In this document: positions 4,786 through 13,346 of the stretch, piece after piece
Layout: each line of letters opens with the position of its first letter
Position numbering within the stretch: the first letter of the stretch is position 1
DNA from: Parachryseolinea silvisoli
GTDB lineage: Bacteria; Bacteroidota; Bacteroidia; Cytophagales; Cyclobacteriaceae
Direction of reading: 5' to 3'
NCBI RefSeq assembly: GCF_021190955.1
Contig: NZ_JAIOAO010000002.1
Span: 310,001 to 374,000 of the forward strand
Length of the DNA: 64,000 nt
Program-made: the position numbers and the translations under genes
The notes under the pieces: generated by a model
Databases searched by the model: none
What the model saw: only the letters and a program-made list of their open reading frames with translations
Told to the model about the DNA's origin: nothing

Positions 4786-4882
4786 TCGGTAAAAATATTT
4801 CGCCCTTGCACAACGGCAAATGCGTGTATGCCGTTTAGAAATTGTGCATTTTTGGCTTCCGCATGAGCGGAGCATACACCCT

Positions 4883-5851
4883 GTGAGAGAGGCTGCATTT
4901 GTAAAACGAAACCAGGCGCGGTGGCAGGAGTTTGAGAGAACACTGTCCGCACAGGCGGCATCTACCCCCGACAAGCTGGCCGAAGTCTTCATTCAGATCA
5001 CCGACGATCTTTCCTTTGCACGCACGCAGTACCCCGATAGTCGCGTGACCACGTACCTCAACAACCTGGCTTCCAAGATCCACCTGGAGATTTACAAGAA
5101 TAAAAAAGAAGACCGGAGCCGCTTCCGTACTTTCTGGACACACGAAATACCTTCGGCGGTATACGCCAGCCGAAAGCAAATGCTGTATGCGCTGCTGATC
5201 TTTCTGATCGCTGGTGCGGTCGGAGTGGTCTCTACGTTGTACGACGACACCTTTACGCGTCTGATCCTGGGTGACTACTATGTGAATATGACACTCGAGA
5301 ACATTCACAACGGTAACCCCACCGCGGTATACGAAGGCGGCAATGAGAGTGACATGTTCTTTCGCATTACCCTCAACAACATTATGGTGGCCCTTCGGGC
5401 TTTTGCCGTAGGTGCCGTGTCCTCCATCTTTACCGGGTTGTTGCTGTTTTACAACGGCCTGATGGTCGGTACGTTCCTGACTTTCTTTTATACGGAGCAA
5501 CAGCTGGCGCAGGGCGCGCCGGTGGTGATGCTGCACGGCACGATTGAGCTTACGTCTATCGTCATTGCCGGCGGCGCGGGTCTTGTCATGGGCAACAGTC
5601 TGTTATTTCCGGGTACATACTCGCGCATGGCATCGTTCAAGCGCGGCGCCTTGCGGGGCGTGAAGATTGCCGTGGGGCTGGTACCGTTCTTTATCGTGGC
5701 CGGCTTTATCGAGTCGTTCGTTACCCGCTATGCTTTTATGCATTGGGGCCTGAAAGTTCTGATCATTGGCTTATCCGCCTTTATCATGTTGTTCTATTTT
5801 GTTTATCATCCTTATCGCCTTGCCAAACATGGAAAACTTCACGTTGATTGA
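4883..5851 (+). CDS. SpoIIM-like (stage II sporulation protein M) membrane protein
   Basis: A polytopic membrane protein of the SpoIIM/DUF95 family, about 322 residues. I choose the GTG at 4883 because the family typically begins (M)REAAFVKRN. The upstream ATG at 4820 lies inside a small hairpin (AACGGCA/TGCCGTT, 4812-4835) and would add an unlikely leader. A cytosolic region of about 95 residues precedes five or so hydrophobic segments. The family core includes ITLNNIMVALRAF, FYNGLMVGTF and the conserved HGTIEL motif. In non-sporulating Bacteroidota this protein co-occurs with RDD, DUF4129, DUF4350, MoxR and DUF58 genes, as here. Its biochemical role is unknown. The 3' end overlaps the next gene by 23 bases. 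Confidence 0.9.
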   Translation: MREAAFVKRNQARWQEFERTLSAQAASTPDKLAEVFIQITDDLSFARTQYPDSRVTTYLNNLASKIHLEIYKNKKEDRSRFRTFWTHEIPSAVYASRKQMLYALLIFLIAGAVGVVSTLYDDTFTRLILGDYYVNMTLENIHNGNPTAVYEGGNESDMFFRITLNNIMVALRAFAVGAVSSIFTGLLLFYNGLMVGTFLTFFYTEQQLAQGAPVVMLHGTIELTSIVIAGGAGLVMGNSLLFPGTYSRMASFKRGALRGVKIAVGLVPFFIVAGFIESFVTRYAFMHWGLKVLIIGLSAFIMLFYFVYHPYRLAKHGKLHVD

Positions 5852-6836
5852 GTATCAGAAAGAGCGCGACTTCAGTCAGAAGATGAGCGTCGTGTTTGAA
5901 TTCGTCCGGCAAAACTTCAAGTCTTTGTCGCGGTGTTTGCTCTTTATTGCGGGGCCGCCGGTAGCGGTCGGGGCCATCTTTATCAATGATTTCTTTAACC
6001 GTATCCTGGGCTTTAGCAAGGCGTCGCGCGGCAACGCTTACGGCGCCGGTGTTGAAAACATCGAAGATTACTTTACGTCGATTACGTTCCTGTTACAAGT
6101 CATCGGTATCCTGGGTTTTCTGTGGATCGGCGGTGTGATCACCATCGCATGCGTCTATGGCTACATGCGGCTGTACCGGGAGAAGGGCAGCAACCAGATT
6201 GAAGTAAGCGAGGTATGGAGTTATGTGCGCCAAAACTTCGGCCGGTATTTTGGCACGGTGACGTCGTACTTTTTTCTGACGATGATCACTTTTATGATAC
6301 TCTCCATCCCGCTGATGCTGGTGATGGGAGTGGCTGCGACCATTAGCCCTTTCCTGACGATTTTCTTTGTGCTTGGTTTTTATGTAGGGGCCGGGTTGCT
6401 CGGCATGAACCTGTCGATGATCTTTATTATCCGGGCCGTGGAGCCCGTGAGCTTCTTCGATGGCCTGCAACGGCTTATATACCTGGTAAAGGGCAAGGTG
6501 TGGAGCACGTTTGGTGTGGGCGCGTTGAATACACTGATCCAGTCGGTGATCTCGGGTGTCTTTCTGATTCCATGGTATATCATTCTGGCGCTCTCTTTCC
6601 TGCACGAGGTTGACGGTGCCGAGTTTCAGGAACCCTCGTCCGTGTGGAACGCCGTGGGGTCTGTGTTCTTCATCCTCTATTTTATTTGCAATATCATGCT
6701 TTACGCGCTCCCATTGTTGGGATTGGCGTTTCAATATTATAACCTGGTAGAGCTTAAAGAAGCGCGGGGTTTGCTAAACAACCTGGAGTCTTTTGGGGAA
6801 ACAAGTGCACCCAAACAAGCCGATGAACATTACTAG
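5829..6836 (+). CDS. polytopic membrane protein of unknown function (SpoIIM/MoxR operon)
   Basis: A 335-residue protein with about six to seven hydrophobic helices separated by short loops and no recognisable catalytic motif. The start is the ATG at 5829 (MENFTLIEYQKERDFSQKM), which overlaps the end of the SpoIIM gene by 23 bases; the longer frame would only add residues read from within SpoIIM. The N-terminal 40 residues are charged and probably cytosolic (VFEFVRQNFKSL), and a similar VWSYVRQNFGRYFG motif recurs near residue 125, which may point to an internal duplication. The overlaps on both sides (14 bases with the next gene) indicate a translationally coupled membrane operon. Confidence 0.85.
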   Translation: MENFTLIEYQKERDFSQKMSVVFEFVRQNFKSLSRCLLFIAGPPVAVGAIFINDFFNRILGFSKASRGNAYGAGVENIEDYFTSITFLLQVIGILGFLWIGGVITIACVYGYMRLYREKGSNQIEVSEVWSYVRQNFGRYFGTVTSYFFLTMITFMILSIPLMLVMGVAATISPFLTIFFVLGFYVGAGLLGMNLSMIFIIRAVEPVSFFDGLQRLIYLVKGKVWSTFGVGALNTLIQSVISGVFLIPWYIILALSFLHEVDGAEFQEPSSVWNAVGSVFFILYFICNIMLYALPLLGLAFQYYNLVELKEARGLLNNLESFGETSAPKQADEHY

Positions 6837-7602
6837 ATCGTTTTTCTTTCTTTTCTTGCTGACGCTCACGGTCGGTGCTTATGCGCAAGACCAGGTGCCG
6901 CAGACTGCCATAGACACGCTGATGGACGCGGTTGTTGCAGGCGAAGACGAGAAGGAAGTGCCGGAGGTCGTTCCACCGAACGACAGCACCACGATAGAAG
7001 CCCGTGCCATGGATCCTGCCAAGCTGCAGCAGATGCAGGAAGATCCGGAAATGGACTACGGGCAAGATAGCCCGGCCGTAGTAGGGTTATGGGACAGACT
7101 GATGATGTGGCTGGTGGCGATCCTTCGCTGGTTGTTCTTTATGGGCGAATCGACGGATTGGGGCAATGTAATCGTCGGCATCCTGGGGGTGGGTATTTTG
7201 ACGTATGTCATTCTGCGGCTTCTCAAAATTGACGCCCTTAACATGCTCCGTTCCAGGAGCCGGGCCACGTTGCACCATACGGTGTTGGAAGAGAACATTC
7301 ACGAGATGGATTTTGAAAAGCTTATTGCCGATGCATTGGCAGAGCATGCGTATCGCCTGGCCATTCGGTTAACATTTTTGTATAGTCTCAAGCTGCTCTC
7401 CGACCGGCAACACATTCATTGGGAACCGGGCAAGACCAACCACGACTACCTGCGTGAACTGTCGGTAGCCGAGTTGAAGGTCGGCTTTCGCGAGCTGAAC
7501 TTTTATTTCGAGAACGCATGGTATGGTAACTTCTCCATTACGGGCGAGCACTACCAGCGCGTAAACAGTATCTTCAACACCTGGAAAACCAACGTGCGTT
7601 GA
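6823..7602 (+). CDS. DUF4129 domain protein, exported and membrane-anchored
   Basis: A 259-residue protein starting at the ATG at 6823 (MNITRSFFFLFLLTLTVGAYAQ, a clear signal peptide of about 22 residues). An acidic, probably extracytoplasmic stretch of 70-80 residues follows, then a transmembrane segment (VIVGILGVGILTYVILRLL, about 113-131) and a C-terminal cytosolic domain. The segment ALAEHAYRLAIRLTFLYSLKLL with the downstream ELN.YFENAWYGN is characteristic of DUF4129 proteins next to DUF58/MoxR genes. It overlaps the upstream gene by 14 bases and the downstream TTG start by 4. Function is unknown; the family is usually discussed with MoxR chaperones and transglutaminase-like proteins. 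Confidence 0.85.
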   Translation: MNITRSFFFLFLLTLTVGAYAQDQVPQTAIDTLMDAVVAGEDEKEVPEVVPPNDSTTIEARAMDPAKLQQMQEDPEMDYGQDSPAVVGLWDRLMMWLVAILRWLFFMGESTDWGNVIVGILGVGILTYVILRLLKIDALNMLRSRSRATLHHTVLEENIHEMDFEKLIADALAEHAYRLAIRLTFLYSLKLLSDRQHIHWEPGKTNHDYLRELSVAELKVGFRELNFYFENAWYGNFSITGEHYQRVNSIFNTWKTNVR

Positions 7603-8801
7603 AAAAAGACTGGAAATATATCTTCTACCTCGGGGGTGCCGTTCTGATCTACGTGGCCTTCAATCTACTGGCCCCGCGGCAACTGGATTGGCGCGTGACG
7701 TATTACCATAAACACAAGATACCGTTTGGCGGACATGCTCTCAACACCCTGGTGCACGACCAGTTTGCCGATCGCGACATCCGGCAAAATAACGAGACGT
7801 TGTATGAGCTCTATGACAGCGTACAAAAACCGGTAAACCTGCTGATCGTTGCTTCGTCCTTCTCGCCCGGCGACGAGGAAGTAAAAGCGCTGCTGAAAAA
7901 CGTGGCCATGGGAGGTCATGCACTGATTTCCACGGGTGGGATGTATGGCAAGCTGCCGGATACACTCGGAATTGAGATCACGAATTATTTTTATGAAGAC
8001 GGCTATACTCAGTATATGACCGACGCGACGGACAGCACCCACCTGCGCTTTTCCAACGCAGGCTTGCCAGATACCACGCATTATCTCTATCCGCGTAAAA
8101 ACATGGGTGAACGGATCGCTATCACAAACGATTCCCTGGACATGCGCGTGGCTGCGGTAAACGACCTGGGCATGATCGTGACGGTAACGATACCCTGGGG
8201 CAAGGGCAAGATTATTCTTAACAGCACGCCGATGATCTTTACCAACGCCTATATGTTGTCTGGTGAAAATAATCGTTTTGCCGCCACAACGCTTTCGTAC
8301 TTGCCTGACAACGATCTGCTCTGGACGGAGTTTTACGAGCTGGGGCGTATGGAAGCCCGGACTCCGCTGCGCTTTATCCTGATGACACCGACGCTGCGGT
8401 GGGCCTATTTTATTACGATTCTGGCGTTGTTGCTCTTCATTTTATTTGAAGCCAAACGCCGGCAGCGCACGATTCCGATCATTAAGCCGGTGGCCAATAC
8501 CACACTGGAGTTTGTCCATACCATCGGCGATCTATATTATCAGCACGGCGACCACAAGGATATTGCTGAAAAGCTTATTATGTACTGGCTTGAGCAGGTA
8601 CGGACACGTTACTGGCTTTCTACCACCAAGCTGGACAATGCCTTTACGGAGGCCCTCATTCGCAAGTCGGGCAAGCCGGCTGAAGATGTTCGCGCATTGG
8701 TGAATGTCATTCGCCTGATCCAGTCAAAGCCCGACGTGGCGCTGGACCGCCTGATCGACCTCAATGACCGTATTGAAAAATTCACTCCCTCCTCGCTATA
8801 A
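7599..8801 (+). CDS. DUF4350 domain protein
   Basis: A 400-residue protein with one N-terminal membrane helix (YIFYLGGAVLIYVAFNLLA), a glutamine-amidotransferase-like DUF4350 domain (LLIVASSFSPGDEEVKALL, then GGHALISTGG), a second membrane helix near residue 270 (WAYFITILALLLFILF) and a cytosolic tail of about 110 residues. It starts with TTG in a TTGA overlap with the upstream stop; no ATG near by fits, so re-initiation is likely. DUF4350 proteins regularly sit between DUF4129 and MoxR genes, and this operon follows that order. The enzymatic residues of true amidotransferases are not evident, so it is probably a structural or binding module. Confidence 0.87.
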   Translation: MKKDWKYIFYLGGAVLIYVAFNLLAPRQLDWRVTYYHKHKIPFGGHALNTLVHDQFADRDIRQNNETLYELYDSVQKPVNLLIVASSFSPGDEEVKALLKNVAMGGHALISTGGMYGKLPDTLGIEITNYFYEDGYTQYMTDATDSTHLRFSNAGLPDTTHYLYPRKNMGERIAITNDSLDMRVAAVNDLGMIVTVTIPWGKGKIILNSTPMIFTNAYMLSGENNRFAATTLSYLPDNDLLWTEFYELGRMEARTPLRFILMTPTLRWAYFITILALLLFILFEAKRRQRTIPIIKPVANTTLEFVHTIGDLYYQHGDHKDIAEKLIMYWLEQVRTRYWLSTTKLDNAFTEALIRKSGKPAEDVRALVNVIRLIQSKPDVALDRLIDLNDRIEKFTPSSL

Positions 8802-8812
8802 CACACAACATT

Positions 8813-9790
8813 ATGGAAGAAAAAGCATTTGAAAGCCGCGTAGACCTTAGCGCCCTCAACGCCAGCGTAACACGCATTCGCGAAGAGATCGGCAAAGTGA
8901 TCGTGGGTCAGGAAGCGATGATCGACCTGCTCATCACGGCCATCCTGGCTGACGGCCACGTGCTGATCGAAGGCGTGCCGGGGGTAGCCAAGACGTTAAC
9001 GGCCAAACTGCTGTCGCGAATTATATCGGCGAAGTTCTCGCGCATTCAGTTCACGCCCGACCTGATGCCGTCGGATGTACTCGGTACTTCCGTCTTCAAT
9101 GTTAAAAAGACCGAGTTTGAATTTAAGGCTGGTCCGATCTTCTCGAATATCGTATTGATTGACGAGATCAACCGCGCCCCGGCCAAGACCCAGGCGGCAT
9201 TGTTCGAAGTGATGGAAGAGCGGCAGGTTACCATCGATGGTACGACGTATCCGTTGGAGTATCCTTACCTGGTAGTCGCTACACAAAACCCGGTGGAGCA
9301 TGAAGGCACATACCGTTTGCCGGAAGCGCAGCTGGACCGATTCCTGTTTAAGATTACGGTGGGCTATCCCGAACTGTTGCAAGAGGTTTCTATTCTCGCG
9401 AATCACCACCGTCGTCGTGGCCACCTGGCGCTGGACGAGGTGAATGCGGTGTTGACCGTAGATCAAATCCGGCAGGTGCGTGAGTCGGTGCAGCAAGTAC
9501 ATATCGAAGAGAACCTGGTGCACTATATTGCCAGCATTATGCACGAGACGCGCAATAATCCGGCGCTCTTCCTGGGGGCTTCACCGCGGGCATCGATCGC
9601 GATCCTTAACAGTGCCAAAGCCTATGCTGCCATTAACGGCCGGGACTTTGTAACGCCGGAAGATATCAAGTATATCGCGCTGCCAGTGTTGCGGCACCGC
9701 CTGATGCTTACGCCTGATAAGGAGATGGAAGGTGTGACGACAGACGAAGTGGTAAGACAGATCGTCGATAAAATCGAAGTACCACGCTAG
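8813..9790 (+). CDS. MoxR family AAA+ ATPase
   Basis: A 325-residue AAA+ ATPase of the MoxR/RavA group (AAA_3 domain, C-terminal AAA lid). Walker A is GVPGVAKT (54-61) and Walker B is IVLIDEIN (113-120). The family segment TPDLMPSDVLG (81-91) and the sensor/arginine-finger region RLPEAQLDRF follow, and GASPRAS lies in the lid. These ATPases are thought to act as chaperones that insert cofactors or assemble protein complexes, usually with a von Willebrand-type partner. Here that partner is the DUF58 protein encoded with a 1-base overlap. No BatA/BatB genes are next to it, so this is the DUF58/DUF4129/DUF4350 type of operon. Confidence 0.96.
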   Translation: MEEKAFESRVDLSALNASVTRIREEIGKVIVGQEAMIDLLITAILADGHVLIEGVPGVAKTLTAKLLSRIISAKFSRIQFTPDLMPSDVLGTSVFNVKKTEFEFKAGPIFSNIVLIDEINRAPAKTQAALFEVMEERQVTIDGTTYPLEYPYLVVATQNPVEHEGTYRLPEAQLDRFLFKITVGYPELLQEVSILANHHRRRGHLALDEVNAVLTVDQIRQVRESVQQVHIEENLVHYIASIMHETRNNPALFLGASPRASIAILNSAKAYAAINGRDFVTPEDIKYIALPVLRHRLMLTPDKEMEGVTTDEVVRQIVDKIEVPR

Positions 9791-11121
9791 TGAAGCTCAT
9801 CCGTCCACTATATTTAACCAACCGGCTTTTTATTGCCACGGGAACAGTCGTGATGCTGTTCATTCTCAGCTTTGTGCTGGAGTGGCCCATCCTGATTCCC
9901 CAGGCTGCTTTCTTGCTGTTGCTGGCGGTCATCCTTGCGGATACGCTATTGCTCTTCCGCTTGCGCAAGGGCCTGCATGGGCATCGCATTACTCCCGAGA
10001 AGCTGTCGAACGGTGACCAGAACGAGATCCGTATTCACCTGGAAAATTATTATCCTTTTATAGCGGACATCACCGTCATCGACGAGATACCGCACCAGTT
10101 CCAGCGTCGCGACCTGCACTTTGCGCTTTCCATGCCTCCAGGGCAGAGCAAGACTTTACAGTATTCGCTGCGGCCGGTAAAGCGTGGCGAGTATTCTTTC
10201 GGCACAGTCAACATCTTTGTCTGCTCACCGATCGGTTTCCTTCGCCGCCGGTATAAATTTTCGGACGATGCCATGGTACCGGTATATCCTTCATACCTGC
10301 AAATGCGCAAGTACGAGTTGATGGCCATCTCTAACCGGCTGACGGAAGCCGGTATCAAAAAGATCCGTCGCATTGGTCAGAACACCGAGTTCGAGCTGAT
10401 CAAGGAATATGTGAGTGGCGACGACTTTCGCAACATCAACTGGAAGGCCAGCGCACGCCGTCCGCACCTGATGGTGAACCACTATCAAGACGAACGGTCA
10501 CAGCAGATGTACTGCCTGATCGACAAAGGGCGCGTGATGCAAATGCCCTTCGCGGGCATGAGTCTGTTGGATTATGCTATTAATGCCAGCCTGGTGATCT
10601 CCAACATTGCGATCAAAAAATCAGATAAGGCCGGACTCATTACGTTTCAGGATACGATTGGCACTACGTTGCCGGCGGGACGTAAGAATAATCAAATGTC
10701 GCAGATTCTCGAGGTGCTGTACAACCAGAAGACTGCTTACCGCGAGTCGGACTTCTCGGCATTGTACACACATGTACGCCGCAAAGTGAGCCAGCGCAGT
10801 CTGCTGCTTTTGTTCACGAATTTCGAGTCTATCCATAGCCTCCACCGGCAGCTGCCTTTCTTAAAAAGCCTGGCTCAACAGCACCTGTTGGTTGTAGTCT
10901 TTTTTGAGAATACCGAATTGAAAGCTATGACTACCACGCATGCGGCTGATGTGCGCGGTATATATCACAAAGTCATTGCCGAGAAGTTTGCGTATGACAA
11001 AAAGCTTATTGTAAAAGAATTGAGCCGGCACGGCATACAGGCCTTGCTGACGGCACCGGAGAATCTGACGGTGAACACGATCAATAAGTACCTGGAGTTG
11101 AAGGCCAGGGGGCTGTTTTAG
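9790..11121 (+). CDS. DUF58 domain protein (VWA-like), MoxR partner
   Basis: A 443-residue protein starting with GTG in a TAGTG overlap with the MoxR gene. Two hydrophobic helices lie at about 11-55. An extracytoplasmic or interfacial beta-rich part follows (LRPVKRGEYSFGTVNIFV), then the DUF58 motif (FELIKEYVSGDDFRNINWKASAR, around 199-221) and a von Willebrand-like domain with a degenerate MIDAS (YCLIDKGRVM). DUF58 proteins occur beside MoxR ATPases almost universally and are assumed to be their substrates or adaptors. The downstream gene, an inactive RseP homologue, begins 22 bases later and is probably in the same transcript. Confidence 0.92.
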   Translation: MKLIRPLYLTNRLFIATGTVVMLFILSFVLEWPILIPQAAFLLLLAVILADTLLLFRLRKGLHGHRITPEKLSNGDQNEIRIHLENYYPFIADITVIDEIPHQFQRRDLHFALSMPPGQSKTLQYSLRPVKRGEYSFGTVNIFVCSPIGFLRRRYKFSDDAMVPVYPSYLQMRKYELMAISNRLTEAGIKKIRRIGQNTEFELIKEYVSGDDFRNINWKASARRPHLMVNHYQDERSQQMYCLIDKGRVMQMPFAGMSLLDYAINASLVISNIAIKKSDKAGLITFQDTIGTTLPAGRKNNQMSQILEVLYNQKTAYRESDFSALYTHVRRKVSQRSLLLLFTNFESIHSLHRQLPFLKSLAQQHLLVVVFFENTELKAMTTTHAADVRGIYHKVIAEKFAYDKKLIVKELSRHGIQALLTAPENLTVNTINKYLELKARGLF

Positions 11122-11143: not shown

Positions 11144-12448
11144 ATGAACTTATTGCAAAGTCTTTTGCTTATTGCCATCCTTAACCTGGTCTACCAGGCA
11201 GGCTTCTTTGTAATGTCCCGCTGGCTTCGTGTTTCTAACGACCACTATTTCCTCGGCTATGGACGATCGCTGTTTACGTTCAGGGCCGGCGGCGTAAAGT
11301 TCTCCATGGGTTGGTACATCCCGATATTTTTTCTTGCCCGCATCTATACCGTGACCGATGGCCAGAAAAGTGCCATGATCTACCCATGGGAGTTTGCAAA
11401 CCGTACCCTGGGGCGGCGGCTACTGGCTACCTGGGGCGGCGCGATGGCGCTGATCTTCTTTGCCTGGACTTTTTTTACGTATGACGCATTTGTCAAACCG
11501 TATAGCGTCATTACTCGCGAAGATGTGAACCGTTACGGCATCGAACCAAATCAGACCGCGAAAGAGGCCGGCTTCCGATCAGGAGACAAAATCCTACAAA
11601 TAAACAGCCGCGAGTACGAATTGTTTGACGATCTAATCAAACCAACCGCGTTGCTACCGAACGGTGCAGTATATACCGTTCAAAGGGGTGACAGTGTGTT
11701 GGATATTACTATTTCGCCTCAGATGGCGAAGACATTTGTTCCTGACCCTGAGAACTTCCGCCTGTCCCTTCGTATGCCGTTTGAGGTGCTATCTGTCATT
11801 CCTGGAACGCCGGCAGATGCCGCAGCAATACAACCCGGTGATCTCATCACGAAAGCGAACGGGAGAGAGGCCATCCTATCTTTGGATAATGTGCATAACG
11901 AGCGCTATAAAGGTACTGACACCGTCTTGCTAGAAATAGAACGCATCCAGGACGGTCGAACGAGTGTACAGACAAAATATATTGTCATGCCAGAAACTCT
12001 TGCGAAAGATGGCGCCTTCGTCGAAGGCAGCGTGGCGCTGGGCATAAAGACTAAGCTCCTTTTTTCACGTACACACCGGTCACGCACATTTTTTCAGGCA
12101 GCGGGTGAGGGCGTATCTATCATATCAAAATTCTTTACCTCCTCCCTGCGAGGTATTTCTCAGGTGACATACAAGGCATCGCGAAGCGAAATAGAGCCAA
12201 TAGCCATTACGCCAGCAATCCGGTCGTTTGCGCATCATGTCAGCACACGCGCATTGATCGTCTGGATATATAATATTCTGCCGTTGCCTTATTCCCTCTT
12301 CTGGGAAACCATTGCCTTATTCTATGAAGGTATTACCTGGAAGAAATACCCCGAATCCTTATTCAGATGGTCGTGGATAGCGGGCCTTGTTGTGTTTGTC
12401 GCTTTTGTGCTGTTTACGTTCGTAAAAGATCTACTCGCTCTATTCTGA
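11144..12448 (+). CDS. RseP-like site-2 protease homologue lacking catalytic residues (pseudoprotease)
   Basis: The 434-residue protein keeps the architecture of RseP/M50B proteases. There is a first helix (4-26), a second (about 94-112) preceded by the PWEF motif (81-84), two PDZ domains (about 130-190 and 208-275), an EPIAI segment (351-355) where RseP has GPISI, and two C-terminal helices. The zinc motif HExxH is replaced by YQAGF (17-21). The conserved GGYV loop reads IFFLARIY, and the LPxPxLDGG motif reads LPLPYSLFWE (379-388), so both zinc-binding elements are lost. The frame is open and long, so this looks like a maintained inactive paralogue, not a decayed gene. It follows DUF58 by 22 bases. 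A role in binding or escorting membrane substrates is inference. Confidence 0.85.
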   Translation: MNLLQSLLLIAILNLVYQAGFFVMSRWLRVSNDHYFLGYGRSLFTFRAGGVKFSMGWYIPIFFLARIYTVTDGQKSAMIYPWEFANRTLGRRLLATWGGAMALIFFAWTFFTYDAFVKPYSVITREDVNRYGIEPNQTAKEAGFRSGDKILQINSREYELFDDLIKPTALLPNGAVYTVQRGDSVLDITISPQMAKTFVPDPENFRLSLRMPFEVLSVIPGTPADAAAIQPGDLITKANGREAILSLDNVHNERYKGTDTVLLEIERIQDGRTSVQTKYIVMPETLAKDGAFVEGSVALGIKTKLLFSRTHRSRTFFQAAGEGVSIISKFFTSSLRGISQVTYKASRSEIEPIAITPAIRSFAHHVSTRALIVWIYNILPLPYSLFWETIALFYEGITWKKYPESLFRWSWIAGLVVFVAFVLFTFVKDLLALF

Positions 12449-12491: not shown

Positions 12492-13346
12492 TCAATGTAG
12501 GCTCATGCTCAGAATTCCCATGAGCATAATCACCTTACAAAACGCGCTGAGTCGGGCAAAGTCCCGGATAGTATCGGCTCGAATAAGCCGATATAGTAGC
12601 CACAACAGGGGTACGAACAGAAAGATAACATAATACTGTAGCGGCAGTACCTGATAGAAATAATTCAATATCACCACCGTTGCGCTGAATAGGAACAAGA
12701 TGAGGTAGATCACAAACTTCGTGCGGCGAAGCCCCAACATGATGGGCAGGGTCTTGCATCCAAACGTGACATCGCCCTTCAGGTCTTCCATGTCTTTGAT
12801 AATCTCGCGGACGAGCGTCATAAAGAATGCAAAACTGGCGTAGATGATAATCAAGGCACTGCCGGTGTGGTAGTACAGATCGACAATGAAAATGGCCAGG
12901 CCAGTGAGGAAGGCTACCACAAAATTGCCGATGAAGGGCAGTCTCTTTAGGTTATTGGAATAAAACCACAGTAAGAAGACTGTCACCAGGTTTACCGCCC
13001 CGATCTTCCACGACAGTAACAACCCGAGCAGTACACCCGCGCTGGAGAGTACAACGTGAAACAGGATGGCATACCGACGGGTGATGCTTTTGCCAATCAC
13101 GACCCGGCTGGGTTTATTGATGTAGTCGATCTTGACGTCGTAGTAGTCGTTGATGATATAGCCGGCGGCGGCAATCAGCACGGTGGACGTGGCCAGGATG
13201 AACAGAGAGCCGTCGTTGAGCGTGGTGGTGGCAATCAGGAAGCCCGCGGTGCAATATTGGGCCAGACCAATGATAACCAGGTTGCCAAAGCGGGTGAGCT
13301 TGAGCAGCGATTCCAGAAATGTACGAAATGGACGACCTGTTGCCAT
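12492..13346 (-). CDS. UbiA family prenyltransferase (geranylgeranylglycerol-phosphate geranylgeranyltransferase-like)
   Basis: A 284-residue polytopic membrane protein with the two aspartate-rich motifs of UbiA prenyltransferases: NDYYDVKID (about 66-74) and DMEDLKGD (about 187-194), which bind the Mg-diphosphate of the prenyl donor. Eight or so hydrophobic helices are visible. In Bacteroidota proteins of this type are commonly named geranylgeranylglycerol-phosphate geranylgeranyltransferase, the second prenyl transfer in archaeal ether lipids. A partner first-step enzyme is encoded in this window at 48.4-49.1 kb, which makes that name plausible, but a quinone or heme prenyltransferase cannot be excluded. 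It converges on the RseP-like gene with no visible terminator. A small palindrome (ACCGT-TC-ACGGT) lies just before the start. Confidence 0.85.
   Translation of the reverse strand: MATGRPFRTFLESLLKLTRFGNLVIIGLAQYCTAGFLIATTTLNDGSLFILATSTVLIAAAGYIINDYYDVKIDYINKPSRVVIGKSITRRYAILFHVVLSSAGVLLGLLLSWKIGAVNLVTVFLLWFYSNNLKRLPFIGNFVVAFLTGLAIFIVDLYYHTGSALIIIYASFAFFMTLVREIIKDMEDLKGDVTFGCKTLPIMLGLRRTKFVIYLILFLFSATVVILNYFYQVLPLQYYVIFLFVPLLWLLYRLIRADTIRDFARLSAFCKVIMLMGILSMSLH

Follow-up and report, generated by a model that had tools for sequence, protein, structure and literature searches.

Pseudoproteases are well known among rhomboids. For site-2 proteases (S2Ps), a review of the bacterial members states, in the part of its text available to us, that all S2Ps contain HExxH and LDG (PMC10202637). 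A Schistosoma study removed inactive homologues, and no dead S2P is named in the accessible portion of that article (PMC2772863). In the literature searched, seen in part and with subscription journals mostly outside, so that absence from print is unproven, the sole S2P pseudoprotease named is EGY3, described in the available text as found only in plants (PMC9355673). In the accessible part of another paper (PMC13039401), RseP and pseudoprotease occur in the references only.

The window (the whole stretch of DNA analysed, 64,000 nucleotides) contains a preserved ORF with an ATG start at 11144-12448 (+), encoding a 434-aa, full-length RseP homologue. This protein matches TIGR00054 over residues 1-434 (E=6.1e-17; 61.6 bits, the cut-off being 147.55) and the RseP of A. 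aeolicus, aq_1964 (PDB 9j83), over residues 1-433 (1.1e-19), in agreement with the RseP homology that the first-pass annotation had proposed from the letters alone; the Pfam M50 match (0.0049) falls under the Pfam cut-off. Profile searches and the joint alignment give the order TM1, altered membrane loop, TM2, PDZ tandem, TM3 and TM4. Two stretches match the PDZ profile, and the domains were placed at approximately residues 132-192 (11537-11719, +; profile and PDB matches) and 213-267 (11780-11944, +; Pfam and TIGR profile matches). An AlphaFold model built with a 2-sequence alignment reached a pLDDT of 37; the fold is read from the sequence, according to which the protein appears to keep the RseP architecture of membrane helices and PDZ tandem.

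From 390 sampled genomes of the window's GTDB family, 19 were recovered with the window protein at E<=1e-32, being 11 carriers of RseP homologues without HExxH (window included; dead copies hereafter) and eight genomes with intact RsePs. The dead copy of genome G002 is 100% identical to a protein of Dawidia soli PWU37 (L095), from the Cytophagales species that is the closest relative at the locus; we refer to the window genome and D. soli as the Dawidia group. The remaining nine homologues without HExxH are 24-37% identical. A profile of the 11 members gave, by leave-one-out, 399-491 bits for dead copies vs at most 359 bits for 39 canonical RsePs. When rerun on the 390 genomes at E<=1e-103, it returned the same 11 and 13 intact RsePs with nothing between them; since the profile was built from these 11, their scores prove nothing, the informative part being that there was no twelfth copy. 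The distribution is patchy (11/390), and therefore most relatives do without a dead copy; in the genus-level group it was found in 2 of 7 genomes, counting the window's.

Draws of 345 genomes across the phylum and 370 across the order gave no dead copy outside the GTDB family over 1e-103 and, within it, the window's alone; these draws overlap, the top few candidates per genome were scored and a dead copy below about 347 bits would be missed. Five other order-wide hits over this threshold are intact RsePs. A single-sequence search of the order (390 genomes, E<=1e-40) recovered, besides the window, a single intact RseP (G162). Of two scans of genome contigs, one was empty and the other returned D. 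soli and a weak partial-PDZ match in a Gemmiger MAG. A phage or plasmid origin received no support: a scan of viral contigs turned up no relative, and plasmid tblastn gave weak hits in 9 records, of which the one inspected (Hymenobacter, L172) is an intact RseP. This gene, on a 141-kb plasmid record of Hymenobacter sp. BRD128 (L172, 1315-2664), has HEFGH and LDGG.

Relationship to RseP holds for the whole set. All 11 dead copies match TIGR00054 at E<=0.001 (best 1.2e-35), Pfam M50 at E<=1 (best 9.1e-19) and the PDZ profile, with TIGR00054 scores (61.6-123.7 bits) that lie under the curated cut-off of 147.55 in every case. Compared with a profile of ten canonical RsePs, the dead-copy profile is colinear over 422 columns (probability 100, E=2.5e-82), and this, together with the TIGR00054 match, rules out that the protein has no homology to RseP. 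Despite great divergence, 10 of the 11 copies have 417 to 434 aa. The G512 copy (L102, 8900-10114) stops at 404 aa and its last helix is missing, possibly as a result of decay in this genome. Every one of the 11 carriers has exactly one RseP over the TIGR00054 cut-off, always with HExxH.

Within the window protein, YQAGF stands in place of HExxH (residues 17-21; 11192-11206, +), the former membrane re-entrant beta-loop PLGGYVK reads PIFFLAR (residues 60-66; 11321-11341, +) and the former LPxPxLDGG (LPIPALDGG) reads LPLPYSLFW (residues 379-387; 12278-12304, +), the zinc Asp being replaced by Leu385. SGPIG has changed to IEPIA, while PWEF is retained at 81-84. The joint alignment hence bears out the first-pass description, in which HExxH, the GGYV loop and LDGG were replaced, PWEF was kept and EPIA stood at the GPI position. 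The catalytic Glu and both zinc His of HExxH and the Asp of LDGG are each retained in 0/11 dead copies; in the GGYV loop, the first Gly is retained in none and the second in 4/11. The HExxH and LDG residues are present in 48/48 canonical rows, a figure partly built in since HE..H and LDG served to select these rows. HExxH is also present in 28/28 relative loci fetched without a motif filter (L006-L033) and in 18/18 borderline profile hits.

The dead group has derived residues of its own: Tyr17, at the place of the first zinc His, Phe36 and Pro135 in 11/11 copies and Tyr68 in 10/11. Positions retained by dead and canonical groups alike include those in the PDZ domains, Gly99, the GPI proline and the two LPxP prolines; the PDZ core residues G143, G147, D148, G232 and D233 are kept in 10-11 of the 11 dead copies. 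Chance, a local mutation or a sequencing error is ruled out, since neither His, nor the Glu or the Asp, is present in the D. soli orthologue at the same locus or in the nine other homologues. The expectation that orthologues would be without HExxH was borne out by the D. soli orthologue, and all 11 dead copies are devoid of every residue needed for zinc binding and cleavage.

In a tree of 59 rows, a single branch (support 100/100, length 2.13) splits the 11 dead from the 48 intact sequences, the tree being unrooted, with long dead branches flagged, a bootstrap that is not fully settled and an unsure topology within the dead group. A single origin is favoured by the shared residues, while not proven. 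The dead tree partly mirrors the intact one, both in the Dawidia-group pair and in the pairing of G421 and G542, as would fit an old descent with losses; transfer is also possible.

The dead copies of the window and D. soli are 52-53% identical, with omega of 0.24 by counting and 0.268 by maximum likelihood (LRT against omega 1 = 93.8), and the two genes differ by 18 bases in length, each being one open frame. Between the same genomes, identity is 88-98% and omega 0.02-0.09 for nine genes of the operon and its flanks, and intact RseP has omega of 0.04-0.045; the tree distance is 1.81 for the dead copy vs 0.083 for intact RseP. The dead copies of G421 and G542 have omega of 0.134 (LRT 189, dS near saturation). 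Their dead copies are 62% identical and their intact RsePs 69%, and therefore strong acceleration is not general. The dead copy is under purifying selection, tested in two pairs only, and partial relaxation could explain the fast evolution of the Dawidia-group copy. The suggestion that an inactive RseP paralogue has been maintained, much as iRhoms have been among rhomboids, agrees with the significant RseP matches, the omega of about 0.27 and the dead D. soli orthologue, which has no stop.

Synonymous change is raised as well. Of the codons for residues identical between the window and D. soli, 108/212 differ in the dead gene, while the nine flanking genes give 1048/3060 (p=1.7e-6). The raised divergence falls mostly in the PDZ part and the stretch that follows it, residues 119-345 (window 11498-12178 vs L067; 58/97, p=6.6e-7), while TM3-4 codons equal the flanks (20/50, p=0.45) and TM1-2 is marginal (30/65, p=0.049), these being four comparisons, uncorrected. 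This pattern would fit a divergent allele having taken the place of the PDZ part.

Upstream in the window, a same-strand gene run was recognized by family matches. It starts with a SpoIIM-family protein whose true start may be internal (4820-5851, +), followed by a protein from the ORF list without a significant family match, by its sequence probably a membrane protein (5829-6836, +), a DUF4129 protein (6820-7602, +), a DUF4350 protein (7599-8801, +), a MoxR-type AAA+ ATPase with AAA_3 and AAA_lid_2 (8813-9790, +) and a DUF58 protein (9790-11121, +), which ends 22 bp before the dead RseP. A convergent UbiA prenyltransferase, also from a family match (12492-13346, -), closes off the unit on its downstream side. 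The gap between DUF58 and dead RseP is 19 bp in D. soli, on the same strand and with synteny on both sides, G002 having the order DUF58, dead RseP and UbiA. In the Dawidia group, the dead RseP is probably co-transcribed with the MoxR-DUF58 genes. The MoxR study in Riemerella, as far as its text is available, deals with a Bat operon whose arrangement is unlike the window's (PMC11834572).

The coupling to MoxR-DUF58 claimed by the first-pass annotation stands by position in the window and D. soli, but not as a general rule, and orthologues are far from always downstream of DUF58. Just 2/11 dead copies are found behind DUF58 (the window's and that of G002/D. soli), both in the genus-level group of the window. 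Six others have a same-strand gene upstream, never DUF58; these neighbours are a linalool dehydratase-like protein (weak match, below cut-off), an FAD oxidoreductase, a RES-domain protein, a cytochrome c/DUF7133 protein and two ORFs without family match. The copies of G605, G542 and G421 are isolated, with opposite-strand genes on either side. Seen from the other direction, 26 stretches at DUF58 hits of relatives contain MoxR and DUF58 in 21 cases, a recognised MoxR being absent in five (L078, L080, L083, L085, L092), and the dead gene is found in two of the 21, the window's own and that of G002; the operon is thus common in genomes where the gene does not accompany it. As far as sampled, the MoxR association is limited to the Dawidia group.

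Other features of these neighbourhoods can be mentioned. In G003 and G005, from the same genus-level group, a 1196-aa ORF lies downstream of DUF58 (L068, 11050-14640; L069, 11135-14725). The L068 ORF, the one of the two that was searched, is a subtilase with a secretion tail. Judged by eye, G499 and G605 (L105, L106) have similar ORFs near the dead RseP, being a protein that starts with MPVNRNALIRY and nucleotidyltransferase-like ORFs.

We suggest, with a probability of roughly 0.7, that the dead RseP is a maintained site-2 pseudoprotease, in which the RseP architecture was kept and cleavage was lost. It is likewise probable that the dead copies make up a bacterial site-2 pseudoprotease family of patchy occurrence within the window's GTDB family. 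The most likely role of the dead RseP is that of a membrane receptor, decoy or scaffold that does not cleave. Its PDZ tandem in the periplasm and its bundle of helices would hold membrane clients, and it might compete with the active RseP or present these clients to partners. Within the Dawidia group, the protein may be produced together with the MoxR AAA+ system. The PDZ tandem persists while the substrate-strand loop has changed, and therefore the clients of the dead RseP may differ from those of RseP. According to the accessible part of a study of E. coli RseP, the GGYV loop binds substrate strands, and Pro or deletion changes in it weaken this binding (PMC4597795). With its substrate-clamping loop altered, the dead RseP may not bind RseP clients at all.

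This loop is the main difficulty for a narrower reading, in which the protein would regulate the cell's own intact RseP as a decoy or in a dominant-negative manner, sharing or sequestering its clients (anti-sigma factors, signal-peptide remnants) or forming mixed complexes. The intact RseP present alongside in 11/11 carriers and the nearly invariant PDZ core make this reading possible, but the loop is altered in 11/11 copies, and we hold this reading as less likely than not. It is unlikely that, in the Dawidia group, the dead RseP would instead pass membrane clients to MoxR AAA+/DUF58, as YqgP does with FtsH or Derlins with p97. There is a precedent in a catalytically dead bacterial rhomboid that works as an FtsH adaptor, in the available text of its description (PMC7231995), and the short same-strand gaps past DUF58 with conserved synteny speak in its favour. 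Against this, 9/11 dead copies are elsewhere, just 2/21 MoxR + DUF58 stretches have the gene, and its rate is not visibly tightly coupled to that of the operon genes (52% vs 88-98% identity). Quite improbable, too, is the complete scenario of a bacterial S2P pseudoprotease family whose Dawidia-group member was recruited as membrane-client adaptor of a MoxR AAA+/DUF58 machine.

We also considered that the gene might be a decaying duplicate, a pseudogene-like copy still open by chance. The Dawidia-group copy evolves much faster than its neighbours and the G512 copy has no last helix, which would favour decay, but omega is well under 1 with a strongly significant test, both Dawidia-group genes are open frames of nearly the same length, 10/11 copies are close in size and derived residues are common to different genera. 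Decay of this gene is thus very unlikely, and pure decay as a reading of the whole family is unsupported, given the shared derived residues and the selection test. That the same cavity has acquired a new activity, be it enzymatic or in transport, seems just as remote. The invariant Tyr in place of the first zinc His could point to it, but among the near-invariant positions there is no group of conserved His, Cys, Asp or Glu able to bind a metal in the membrane core: D148 and D233 belong to the PDZ domains, and active RseP has E395 and D429 as well.

Returning to the pseudoprotease reading, a dead RseP copy under selection hints at a non-cutting job for the S2P fold in bacteria, and its presence beside an intact RseP could offer a tractable system for the study of scaffold roles of S2Ps without cutting. 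As 11/11 dead copies are under the RseP cut-off, profile-based annotation may therefore miss or misname such genes.

Of the described systems, the nearest is RseP itself (TIGR00054, an M50B group I site-2 protease known from E. coli and, as aq_1964, from A. aeolicus), with which the dead copies share length, a colinear core, two PDZ domains, PWEF, GPI and LPxP, and from which they differ in the replaced HExxH, LDGG and GGYV loop and in scores below the TIGR00054 cut-off in all copies. EGY3 belongs to an S2P group other than that of RseP. Similarly to the dead RseP, this plant thylakoid protein is, in the available portions of the articles, a dead S2P member without HExxH kept beside active ones (PMC9355673; PMC10978774). 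However, it is a chloroplast protein, and it is likened here by description and not by sequence. Between rhomboids and S2Ps we know of no homology. The iRhoms, Derlins and YqgP resemble the dead RseP in that an intramembrane-protease fold is dead or serves a non-catalytic purpose, for Derlins and YqgP together with an AAA+ partner, as far as the accessible texts describe them (PMC3149277; PMC7231995), but theirs is a rhomboid fold with serine chemistry. If the unlikely role as a MoxR adaptor were true, the dead RseP would be the bacterial equivalent of Derlin-p97, with a site-2 protease fold as its basis.
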